The notes under the pieces were generated by a model. The model saw only the letters and a program-made list of their open reading frames with translations, was not told where the DNA came from and searched no databases. Of a stretch of 64,000 nt of DNA, positions 43,169-46,897 are shown one piece after another (within the stretch, counting starts at the first letter, position 1; every line of letters starts with the position of its first letter). The translations under genes and the position numbers were made by a program. Origin of the DNA: Flavivirga amylovorans (lineage in GTDB: Bacteria > Bacteroidota > Bacteroidia > Flavobacteriales > Flavobacteriaceae); NCBI RefSeq assembly GCF_030540875.1, contig NZ_JAUOEM010000001.1, forward strand, positions 682,001-746,000, written 5' to 3'.

Positions 43169-46100
43169 CTAGTTATTTTCAATCCACTTTCTGGCATTAA
43201 CGAAAGCTTCCAGCCATGGGGACACCTCGTCTTTACGTCCATCAGGGTAATTTGCCCAATTCCATTGGAATGTAGAACGCTCTATATGTGGCATCGTTAC
43301 TAAGTGTCTTCCCGTTTTATCACTCATCATAGCCGTGTTAAAATCAGATCCATTTGGATTATGAGGATATCCTTCATAACCATATTTTGCAACAATATGA
43401 TATTTATCTTCTGTATATGGTAAATTGAACTTTCCTTCACCATGTGAAATCCAAACGCCTAAAGTGCTTCCAGCAAGTGTTGAAAGCATTACAGAATCGT
43501 TTTCTTGAATTTTGACTGATGTAAATGAACTTTCGTGCTTATGAGAATCGTTATAAGTCATTTTGCCATGAACGTCATGCTCTGGGTTTATAAGGTCTAA
43601 TTCCATCCAAAGCTGACACCCATTACAAATACCAACAGATAAAGTATCTTCCCTTGCAAAGAAATCTTTAATAACTTTATTTGCCTTTTCGTTGTATTTA
43701 ATAGCACCTGCCCAACCTTTAGCCGAACCTAAAACATCGGAGTTGCTAAAACCACCAACAGCACCTAAAAACTGAATATCTTCAAGAGTTTCACGACCAG
43801 AAATTAAATCGGTCATATGTACATCTTTTACATCAAAACCAGCTAAATACATGGCATTTGCCATTTCACGCTCCGAATTACTACCTTTTTCACGTAGTAT
43901 AGCCGCTTTTGGACGTCTTGTCTCCTCGAGCGCAGTCGAGAGGTTGTCAAGAGGTCTCGACTGCGCTCGACCTGACAACATATCTTCTAATTTTCCAGTA
44001 AACTGTTTTGGGAATGTGTATTGTAAAGGCTGATTTTTGTAATTATTGAATCTGTCTTCTGCTAAATTATTAGCAGTTTGCTTTTGATCTAATAAGAATG
44101 ATGTCTTATACCAAACATCTCTCATGTCAGCAATGTCAAAAGAGAAATGATCTTCGTTATTTTTGATATTTAAAGTTGCAGTGTTATTTACCGTTCCTAT
44201 ATTAAAAAACTCAATATTATTTTCAGACAAAATCGTTTCTATTGATGCATCACCTTGAAAAACAATTCCTGAATTTTCAGAGAATAAAACTTTTATAGAA
44301 TCTTCTTCATTCAAAACAGAGATATCAAAATCTGCGCCTAAATTAATATCGGCAAAACACATCTCTAACAACGTAGTAATTAATCCACCAGAAGCAACAT
44401 CGTGTCCAGCAGAAATTTTATCAGTTTTAATTAAATTTTGAATGGTATTAAAAGTATCTTTTACAAAAGTTGAGTTTTTTACATCTGGAGCTTCACTTCC
44501 AATGGTATTTAAAACTTGATTAAAAGAACTTCCTCCTAATTTAAAAGTATCTTGAGAGATATTAATATAATAGATGTTTTGACCATTTTGTTTTAAAACA
44601 GGTTCTACAACTTTAGAGATTTCATTACAATTTGCAGCCGCAGAAATAATAACGGTTCCAGGAGAAATAACATCTCCGTCTTTATATTTCTGTTTCATAG
44701 AAAGCGAATCTTTTCCAGTTGGAACATTGATTCCTAAATCAATTGAAAATTCTGAAATAGCTTTAACTGCATTATATAAACGAGCATCTTCACCTTCATT
44801 TTTACAAGGCCACATCCAGTTTGCAGAAAGAGAAACTGAAGCTAAGTTATCTTTTAAAGGTGCCCAAATTAGGTTCGTTAAAGCTTCGGTAATTGAATTT
44901 CTACTGCCTGCTTCTGGATGAATTAATCCAGAAATAGGTGAGTGACCAATAGAAGTAGCAATACCTTCTTTCCCGTTATAATCTAATGCCATAACGCCAA
45001 CATTATTTAACGGAATTTGTAAGGGGCCGACACATTGTTGTTTGGCTACTTTACCACCAACACATCTATCTACCTTATTCGTTAACCAATCTTTACAGGC
45101 TACAGCTTCTAATTGTAAAACTTGTTCTAAATAGATTTGTAAATTCTTGGTTTTATATCTTGAGTTTTTATAATTTCTTTTAACTGTTTTATCTGTTAAA
45201 ATAGTTTTAGGAGAACTTCCAAACATGTCTTCCATTGCTAAATCCATCGGTTTATTACCTTTGGTTTTAGATTGGAACGTAAAGCGATCGTCTCCTGTAA
45301 CATCACCAACAGTATATATTGGAGAGCGTTCACGATCGGCTATTTTATTTAATGTTTCTATATGTTCTTCGGCAATAACAAGTCCCATACGTTCTTGAGA
45401 TTCATTACCAATAATTTCTTTATCTGAAAGCGTTGGATCTCCAACGGGTAAAGCATCTAAATCTATTTTTCCACCTGTATCTTCAACAAGCTCAGATAGA
45501 CAATTTAAGTGACCACCAGCACCATGATCGTGAATAGATACAATAAAGTTCTCTTCACTTTCTACCATACCACGAACAGCATTAGCAGCACGTTTTTGCA
45601 TTTCCGGATTAGAACGTTGTACAGCGTTTAACTCGATACCCGAAGCAAACTCACCAGTATCAGCTGAAGATACCGCAGCACCACCCATACCAATGCGGTA
45701 ATTTTCACCACCAAGAATAACTATTTTATCACCAGTTTTTGGTGTATCTTTTAAAGCTTGATCTGCTTTGCCATAACCAATCCCGCCTGCTTGCATGATA
45801 ACTTTATCGAAACCAAGTTTTCTTGCAGCTGATTCACTAGAAGCAGCATTTTCTTCGTGTTCAAAAGTTAATACCGAACCACAGATTAGAGGTTGTCCAA
45901 ATTTATTACCAAAATCTGATGCTCCATTAGACGCTTTTATCAAAATATCCATTGGCGTTTGGTATAACCAATCTCTTGCTTCAAATTTTTCTTCCCAAGG
46001 TCTGTTTTCTTCTAAACGAGAATAAGACGTCATGTAAACCGCAGTTCCCGCTAAAGGAATAGAACCCTTGCCGCCAGCAAGTCTATCTCTAATTTCTCCA

Positions 46101-46897
46101 CCAGAACCCGTTGCTGCACCGTTAAAAGGCTCAACTGTAGTTGGAAAGTTATGTGTTTCTGCTTTAAGCGAAATAACAGATTCGAATGCTTCTGTAGTAT
46201 AATAATCGGGAATATCGGCACGTTTTGGTGCAAATTGCTCCACTTTCGGCCCTTTTACAAAAGCCACATTATCTTTATAAGCAGACACAATATCGTTAGG
46301 ATTAGCTTCTGATGTTTGCCTTATCATTTTAAAAAGCGATACAGGCTTTTCTTCTCCATCAATAACAAACGTTCCATTAAATATTTTGTGTCGACAGTGT
46401 TCTGAATTTACTTGCGAAAATCCAAAAACCTCAGAATCGGTTAATGGTCTGCCTATTTTTTTAGAAACACCTTCTAAATATTCAACTTCTTCATTACTTA
46501 ATGATAAGCCTTCTTGTTTATTGTAAGCTGAAATATCTTCAATGTCAAGAATTGTTTCTGGTTGAATATCAATCGTAAAGGAATTTTGATTTAATCCATT
46601 GAATTTCTCTGAAATCATTGGATCAAATGCTTTAAAGTCTTCAGAAACCCTTTCGAATTCTTCAATTCTAATGATGTCAGAAATCCCCATGTTCTGAGTG
46701 ATTTCTACAGCATTTGTACTCCAAGGTGTTATCATGGCTGCACGCGGACCAACAAAAAAAGCATCGAGTGATGCTTGTTCTATTTTTGGCTGGTTGCCAA
46801 ATAACCACGTTAATTTTGAAGTGGTTTCAGTTGATAATTCTTTTGTTGTTTGAACAGCAAATACTTTGCTGGTTACGTTTCCAAAGAAATGAATCAT
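43169..46897 (-). CDS. purL: phosphoribosylformylglycinamidine synthase, large single-chain form with in-frame repeat insertion
   Basis: A 1242-residue purine biosynthesis enzyme (FGAR + Gln + ATP to FGAM). It has the FGAM synthase domains with the ATP site and HNFPTTVEPFNGAATGSGGEIRD near residue 235, a second synthase half (VPTGKDSLSMKQKY), and a C-terminal glutamine amidotransferase with SVGICNGCQL nucleophile Cys and the HGEGKF plus PHIERS region. Between the synthase half and the amidotransferase, residues about 974-992 (LSGRAQSRPLDNLSTALEE) are encoded by a GC-rich palindrome foreign to the gene. The frame stays open, so the protein is presumably functional. Confidence 0.95.
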   Translation of the reverse strand: MIHFFGNVTSKVFAVQTTKELSTETTSKLTWLFGNQPKIEQASLDAFFVGPRAAMITPWSTNAVEITQNMGISDIIRIEEFERVSEDFKAFDPMISEKFNGLNQNSFTIDIQPETILDIEDISAYNKQEGLSLSNEEVEYLEGVSKKIGRPLTDSEVFGFSQVNSEHCRHKIFNGTFVIDGEEKPVSLFKMIRQTSEANPNDIVSAYKDNVAFVKGPKVEQFAPKRADIPDYYTTEAFESVISLKAETHNFPTTVEPFNGAATGSGGEIRDRLAGGKGSIPLAGTAVYMTSYSRLEENRPWEEKFEARDWLYQTPMDILIKASNGASDFGNKFGQPLICGSVLTFEHEENAASSESAARKLGFDKVIMQAGGIGYGKADQALKDTPKTGDKIVILGGENYRIGMGGAAVSSADTGEFASGIELNAVQRSNPEMQKRAANAVRGMVESEENFIVSIHDHGAGGHLNCLSELVEDTGGKIDLDALPVGDPTLSDKEIIGNESQERMGLVIAEEHIETLNKIADRERSPIYTVGDVTGDDRFTFQSKTKGNKPMDLAMEDMFGSSPKTILTDKTVKRNYKNSRYKTKNLQIYLEQVLQLEAVACKDWLTNKVDRCVGGKVAKQQCVGPLQIPLNNVGVMALDYNGKEGIATSIGHSPISGLIHPEAGSRNSITEALTNLIWAPLKDNLASVSLSANWMWPCKNEGEDARLYNAVKAISEFSIDLGINVPTGKDSLSMKQKYKDGDVISPGTVIISAAANCNEISKVVEPVLKQNGQNIYYINISQDTFKLGGSSFNQVLNTIGSEAPDVKNSTFVKDTFNTIQNLIKTDKISAGHDVASGGLITTLLEMCFADINLGADFDISVLNEEDSIKVLFSENSGIVFQGDASIETILSENNIEFFNIGTVNNTATLNIKNNEDHFSFDIADMRDVWYKTSFLLDQKQTANNLAEDRFNNYKNQPLQYTFPKQFTGKLEDMLSGRAQSRPLDNLSTALEETRRPKAAILREKGSNSEREMANAMYLAGFDVKDVHMTDLISGRETLEDIQFLGAVGGFSNSDVLGSAKGWAGAIKYNEKANKVIKDFFAREDTLSVGICNGCQLWMELDLINPEHDVHGKMTYNDSHKHESSFTSVKIQENDSVMLSTLAGSTLGVWISHGEGKFNLPYTEDKYHIVAKYGYEGYPHNPNGSDFNTAMMSDKTGRHLVTMPHIERSTFQWNWANYPDGRKDEVSPWLEAFVNARKWIENN
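43922..43978. repeat. GC-rich palindromic repeat inserted in frame in purL
   Basis: TCGAGCGCAGTCGAGA (43926-43941) and its exact complement (43955-43970) surround a 13-nt centre. TTGTCA in the centre also pairs with TGACAA at 43973-43978. The sequence is far richer in G+C than its surroundings and resembles the CTCGACTGCGCTCGA-type repeats that I know from intergenic regions of flavobacteria. The length preserves the purL frame. Confidence 0.85.

Follow-up and report, generated by a model that had tools for sequence, protein, structure and literature searches.

The window, a 64,000-nucleotide stretch of the Flavivirga amylovorans genome, carries purL as one intact open reading frame that holds a 61-bp palindromic element (Table 1). 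Five Pfam families score over cut-off in the product (FGAR-AT_N, FGAR-AT_linker, AIRS_C, FGAR-AT PurM_N-like and GATase_5), and its relatives with a solved structure are 1t3t and 6jt9. An earlier note, made from the letters alone, had placed a palindromic block in frame in purL before the amidotransferase domain. The fold, the arms, the single frame of 1242 residues and the Pfam domains confirm this position.

Table 1. Features of purL and its insert in the window
Feature	Position	Strand	Description
purL, formylglycinamide ribonucleotide amidotransferase	43169-46897	minus	one intact open frame, 1242 aa
Glutaminase domain GATase_5 (Pfam)	43181-43915	minus	residues 995-1239, immediately 3' of the insert
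REPIN-like element, A family, 61 bp	43918-43978	minus	encodes LSGRAQSRPLDNLSTALEET, residues 974-993 plus base 1 of codon 994
REP 1 of the pair (purL reading direction)	43952-43978	minus	TTGTCAGGTCGAGCGCAGTCGAGACCT
Spacer between the two REPs	43948-43951	minus	CTTG, shorter than the spacers of genomic pairs seen
REP 2 of the pair	43918-43947	minus	ACAACCTCTCGACTGCGCTCGAGGAGACAA

The two exact 16-bp complementary arms reported in that note were found as TCGAGCGCAGTCGAGA (43926-43941) and TCTCGACTGCGCTCGA (43955-43970), and arm pairing reaches 24 nt in all (43918-43941 with 43955-43978, 88% complementary). The block had been given as 43922 to 43978. Its right end holds; on the left the element starts four bases earlier, at 43918, because its second half ends in GGAGACAA. 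As single-stranded DNA, positions 43915-43985 fold with -22.9 kcal/mol (z -6.1), and none of 200 shuffles folded equally well. The outer stem of this fold joins TTGTC (43918-43922) to GACAA (43974-43978). The second pairing proposed earlier is corrected accordingly: if the loop TTGTCA paired with TGACAA, this would be an alternative to the outer stem, and the two are mutually exclusive. The block is GC-rich and unlike the gene around it, as had been noted, with a GC content of 0.60 in 43922-43978 (residues 974-992) versus 0.35 across the remaining purL. With up to two mismatches, TCGACTGCGCTCGA matches the window twice, against a mean of 0.02 in 100 shuffles. PurL of this strain gains about 18 polar residues from the element, which probably has no dedicated function.

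A palindromic repeat throughout the genome

The element belongs to a family with many copies in its own genome. We found 22 places with the core CTCGACTGCGCTCGA and 54 with the wider core YTCGACTGCGCTCRR, and no match for the reversed pattern. At many of the 22 printed core places there is a further, inverted copy, often degenerate, and the purL copy likewise consists of two REPs in inverted orientation. Two pieces, of 27 and 30 bases, together make up 57 of the element's 61 bases and recur exactly elsewhere: REP 1 with 27 of its 27 bases at one place (L015) and with 26 at two more (L002 and L007), all three outside long ORFs, and REP 2 with 30 of 30 at another (L010). Only five of the 54 core places lie well inside long ORFs, in four genes: purL (two places), gltX, mtaB and alpha-2-macroglobulin. 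Of the other 49, four are no more than 10 codons from where a stop-to-stop frame of 118-390 aa starts, and these probably lie upstream of the real start. Based on the 54 core places, the empty reversed control and the small number well inside long ORFs, we call the repeat REPIN-like: it is a genome-wide palindromic repeat of two REPs head to head. The earlier note had likened the block to intergenic flavobacterial repeats. The copies in the genome and the relatives with a short linker support this reading of the insert as an in-frame repeat of intergenic type, and the absence of further copies is excluded by the many that the genome search found.

Six Y1_Tnp genes are present in the genome. 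The REP-like 12-mer TCGACTNCGCTY has no match in the stretches of 4.2-4.5 kb around them, so no mobilising enzyme was identified; a RAYT beside the repeats, considered as a candidate, was found around none of the six and was rejected. The tetranucleotide GTAG is absent from the foot of the REPs, whose ends are TTGTCAGG and GGAGACAA. The element in the window begins with TTGTC. Among the printed inserts of families B and D (described below), a CGTC start is found in 7 of 10 and 2 of 5, respectively. One Y1_Tnp-like frame (L028, G000 C11:141203) continues without a stop into a second sequence, giving an open frame of 496 aa that may reflect a fusion or a lost stop. The second part appears to resemble a coproporphyrinogen III oxidase.

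Repeat families in the PurL linker of relatives

We compared the PurL linker in 80 named loci, which are the best matches to the PurL of the window and not a random sample, in 12 congeners including the own genome, and in 27 further loci from among the best matches of a family search covering 397 genomes, at least 379 of them with a match. Another 40 stretches were added, most of them picked for a long match, and the set is thus enriched for long linkers. Removal of ten repeat rows gave 145 distinct rows (the hydropathy and hairpin counts used 146, with one unlabelled repeat row extra); L185, L194, L195, L196 and L199 were left out of the rows for family scoring. Rows were labelled by comparing linker DNA with a family consensus, using cut-offs above the scores of all 1500 shuffles and of 1147 purL stretches elsewhere, and the labels rest on sequence similarity in short linkers. 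Rows labelled E and G are weaker than those of families A to D. The E consensus was built from the purL inserts themselves, and that of G is an assumed one.

Many relatives have a short linker of 11-13 residues between the FTG motif and PKAA, for instance TGKLPEISGKR. Repeats were labelled in 53 of the 145 distinct rows (17 A, 20 B including three C/B joins, 8 D, 3 E, 3 G and 2 C), and 92 rows are without a labelled repeat. In the sets that were not picked by linker length, labels were assigned to 19 of the 80 named loci and to 6 of the 12 congeners (G000, G003, G004, G005, G006 and G011). Setting E and G aside leaves 47 of 145 rows, 16 of 80 named loci and 5 of 12 congeners. The A family is that of the element in the window. 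The B (GTCATTGCGAG...ACGAAGCAATCT...CCTCGCAATGAC), C (GTCATTCAGAGCG.AGCGAAGAATCT) and D (TCGAGTGATT...AATCGTATCGAG) repeats differ from it in sequence. The earlier note had missed both that several unrelated families occupy this one linker across the family and that the insert of the window is common to other species.

The linkers also differ in how much of an element they contain. The left half of C is joined to the right half of B in L048, L090 and L152, six rows (L061, L066, L112, L170, L172 and L182) have a partial element only, and in L144 and L044, as read from their sequences, a second element is nested in the first. For L144 and L203 (G127 C43), the nested unit appears to be a second palindromic pair within an A element, in a linker of 46 residues that is still in frame. 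Unlabelled linkers longer than 13 aa were counted as having none, and some, such as L085, L157 and L181, may hide further remnants. A further family, with a putative consensus of the CCCCAACCCC/GGGG type, may be present at this site in L171, L175 and L118, whose linkers resemble such a repeat (L171 has LTPNPSPKERGAR).

Repeats of these families also occur in host genomes. Across 41 genomes, which include the host genomes for 24 of the 53 labelled rows (but not that of L038) and were searched for families A to D, we found the A core in 37, B in 12, C in 20 and D in 28; the reversed controls gave 0. Some hosts speak against this reading of the inserts. The strict B pattern had no match in G014 and G026, though the purL of both has B-type DNA. 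With the strict pattern, D in G006 was found in its purL copy only. G013 has one B copy besides that in purL, and G031 a single A core.

On a PurL tree of 115 rows, made with the linker excluded, we counted at least 28 changes between presence and absence and at least 33 changes of family; this is a quick tree, on which 41 of 112 inner branches are open. Across Flavobacteriaceae, elements from several unrelated families have probably entered this linker, and over time they were nested, joined to one another, shortened or lost. The PurL of the window and that of G005 group apart from those of the other congeners, so that the genus is split on this tree. The split hints that purL has recombined or been transferred within the family, and purL itself may therefore have moved.

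The frame in which the repeats are read is a polar one. In 48 of the 53 labelled rows it is the most hydrophilic open frame, and all 53 have at least one other open frame; because the rows are related, these counts are descriptive and 48 of 53 does not amount to 53 trials. Mean GRAVY values of the families range from -1.08 to -1.83, versus -1.27 for 57 short unlabelled linkers. A hairpin with z at or below -2 is present in 20 of the 53 labelled rows, in 2 of the 57 short unlabelled rows and in 3 of the 36 longer unlabelled rows, and the hairpins are strong in the window, L140, L146 and L168. On whether relatives encode the same peptide with non-palindromic DNA, as the earlier note had asked, the answer is divided: full inserts keep much of the palindrome, whereas the shortened or decayed forms in L110, L111, L112 and L153 are without it, a loss that we read as decay. 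The polar frame and the weakened hairpins fit a filter acting on the protein together with decay of the palindrome. A model of the C-terminal 702 residues has a mean pLDDT of 67.8 and a pTM of 0.53, with the linker below 50, and this low confidence suggests that the linker is disordered but gives no measure of its surface exposure.

The shared A insert and competing explanations

The insert of the window is not unique to its strain, a point that the earlier note had wanted checked for residues 974-992: inserts that are near-identical or can be recognised as the same, with the same spacer, are found in the purL of six other species. Allowing up to two mismatches, the A spacer signature occurs once per genome, in purL only, in 8 of the 32 genomes searched, with one match of the reversed control (in G029). 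As G016 and G124 do not differ in sequence or in coordinates, the eight carriers represent seven species. The inserts of the window and L140 agree in 88 of 90 bases, compared with 77% of 270 flanking bases and 12 of 26 four-fold sites; other pairs of A inserts agree less, down to 75 of 90 for the window and L055. Six A carriers were compared at the third positions of equal residues, L144 with its nested element being set aside. Identity is 0.96 in the left arm, 0.82 in the loop and 0.92 in the right arm, versus 0.52 and 0.55 in the ten codons on each side and 0.44-0.78 further out. The repeat parts of B and D inserts also have raised third-position identity (0.79-0.93), and unlabelled linkers have no excess (0.64 and 0.60). 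The spacers of the B inserts do not match each other (aa identity 0.25), so that, judging from these sequences, the B copies may be independent landings.

Seven independent landings of one mobile A copy are disfavoured, since all matches to the spacer signature in the 32 genomes lie in purL. With its single spacer, the full A insert of the seven species looks like one sequence identical by descent, and therefore not every presence of a repeat is an independent landing. How one 61-bp copy, sharp at its edges, came to be in seven distant purL genes that are not sisters needs an explanation of its own, and our data do not separate recent horizontal movement from vertical descent combined with gene conversion by genomic repeats.

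The element is an in-frame copy of a genome-wide repeat, and we think it probable that a tolerant, probably disordered linker keeps those landings of several families that are read in a polar frame. Palindromic elements would arrive by transposition-like copying, and most landings in coding DNA would be lost. Those in the PurL linker, between the synthetase and glutaminase domains, would survive where they are in frame and give a polar peptide, presumably leaving the activity of the enzyme unharmed. The clustering is most likely due to tolerance of the linker and not to a special target. The third-codon identity of the A inserts speaks against this model: it lies so far above the nearest flanks that it is not expected of a neutral old insert. 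The apparent common descent of the A insert in seven species, the lack of a REP-like 12-mer around the six Y1_Tnp genes and the hosts with no strict-pattern match outside purL (B in G014 and G026, D in G006) also count against it. A preferred landing site, with the 61-bp A element moving as a unit with sharp ends between the purL genes of different genera in the manner of a homing element, is an unlikely alternative. If it were true, purL would be the reservoir for a translated mini-element that spreads horizontally and has no transposase itself.

Somewhat less likely still is one ancient insertion of the A element, inherited vertically, often lost, and kept alike by gene conversion with genomic repeats or by selection at the DNA level. 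It would account for the 4-base spacer and the frame that seven species share, always once per genome and in purL only, as well as for the conserved third positions of arms and loop and a paired change from CCTC..GAGG to CCTT..AAGG in L040, L042 and L055. However, the A carriers are scattered on the PurL tree (6 changes for 7 rows) and a single clade of carriers was rejected on that quick tree (delta lnL 302, p-AU 3e-72), a rejection that leaves the species history unsettled given that purL may itself have moved. This scenario also leaves the differing sequences of B, C and D unexplained, and the lack of excess third-position identity in unlabelled linkers speaks against it. It is very improbable that palindromes were recruited to purL for a function of the hairpin, for example to make translation pause between two domains. 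The strong hairpins named above are in line with such a role, as is the synonymous conservation in excess that A, B and D inserts have in their repeat parts, but z is above -2 in 33 of the 53 labelled rows with the in-frame peptide still present, most distinct rows (92 of 145) do without a labelled repeat, and the polar character of the frame in use suggests a filter at the protein level. An ordinary variable linker that resembles repeats by chance is hardly conceivable. Relatives that have no repeats do show free variation in the linker, and most rows carry no label, but the cut-offs lie above every shuffle and every purL control stretch, and for the element in the window the exact recurrence of nearly all its bases in its own genome already contradicts chance.

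Related systems and other in-frame sites

Palindromic elements of Rickettsia, for which the original works are reportedly those of Ogata from 2000 and 2002, resemble the present element in lying in frame inside a conserved ORF, here purL. Such repeats are translated inside housekeeping genes, and in R. conorii nearly half of the palindromic elements are in ORFs, according to the consulted part of PMC10969869. In the genome studied here, which belongs to another phylum, the share is not large (5 of 54 core places). The parallel with Rickettsia drawn in the earlier note is supported by the known kind of element (PMC3733652 and PMC10969869, each in the part consulted).

GTAG/CGTC REPs are short palindromes or dimers, mostly intergenic, some of which are read in frame as 20-30 residues (PMC3733652, in the part consulted). 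The same part of that paper describes recB of two Xanthomonas species with different REPs at about the same site; this is one same-site gene in two species, and the other genes are hit elsewhere, whereas here several unrelated families share one linker in many genera. The words 'purL' and 'Flavobacter' do not appear in its main text (supplements aside). REPs have been defined as seldom overlapping coding regions (PMC12306157, in part), and the present repeat is REP-like in being a short palindrome with many copies (54 core places), mostly extragenic (49 of 54 not well inside long ORFs). As in the REPIN/REP systems with RAYT described in the portion of PMC6006769 at hand, two REPs stand head to head, copies are dispersed and Y1_Tnp genes are present; unlike in these systems, no REP-like site is seen around the six Y1_Tnp genes and the ends are TTGTC, not GTAG. 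Inverted repeats also occur inside functional protein genes of nematomorph mitochondria (PMC6649704, partial text). There both arms encode conserved protein, while here the repeat is an addition in a linker.

In-frame REPs were thus already known, and what is new is the convergence of several families on one linker of a core enzyme. No paper on purL inserts was found by title or abstract start among the best matches in the open-access literature, which is not proof of absence. The linker offers a natural experiment on the origin of new protein segments, in which repeats of several unrelated families have become protein at one place of a core biosynthetic enzyme and empty, full, half, nested and decayed states stand side by side. 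It makes testable what governs the tolerance of a mobile repeat in a protein (frame, polarity or disorder), and whether repeats choose the site or selection spares it.

Half-repeats of the A family are also found in frame in gltX, mtaB and alpha-2-macroglobulin (L129, G000 C6:4075; L128, G000 C2:57129; L122, G000 C1:276263). Judged by match length, the gltX insert is present in 5 of the 12 genomes of the genus (549 versus 525 nt) and the longer mtaB form in 6 of 12 (630 versus 615 nt) and in six other relatives. We read 15 of 30 gltX loci, including 3 of the 5 long loci of the genus, and 28 of 30 mtaB loci by eye, without family scoring, and recognised only A-type repeats or decay-like forms. 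Having seen no several-family pattern by eye, we rejected gltX and mtaB as hot spots equal to the PurL linker. In some congeners the gltX and mtaB peptides are kept while the repeat DNA has changed. The mtaB stretch is longer in the distant relatives L268, L278, L283 and L289, for which a repeat is a candidate origin.
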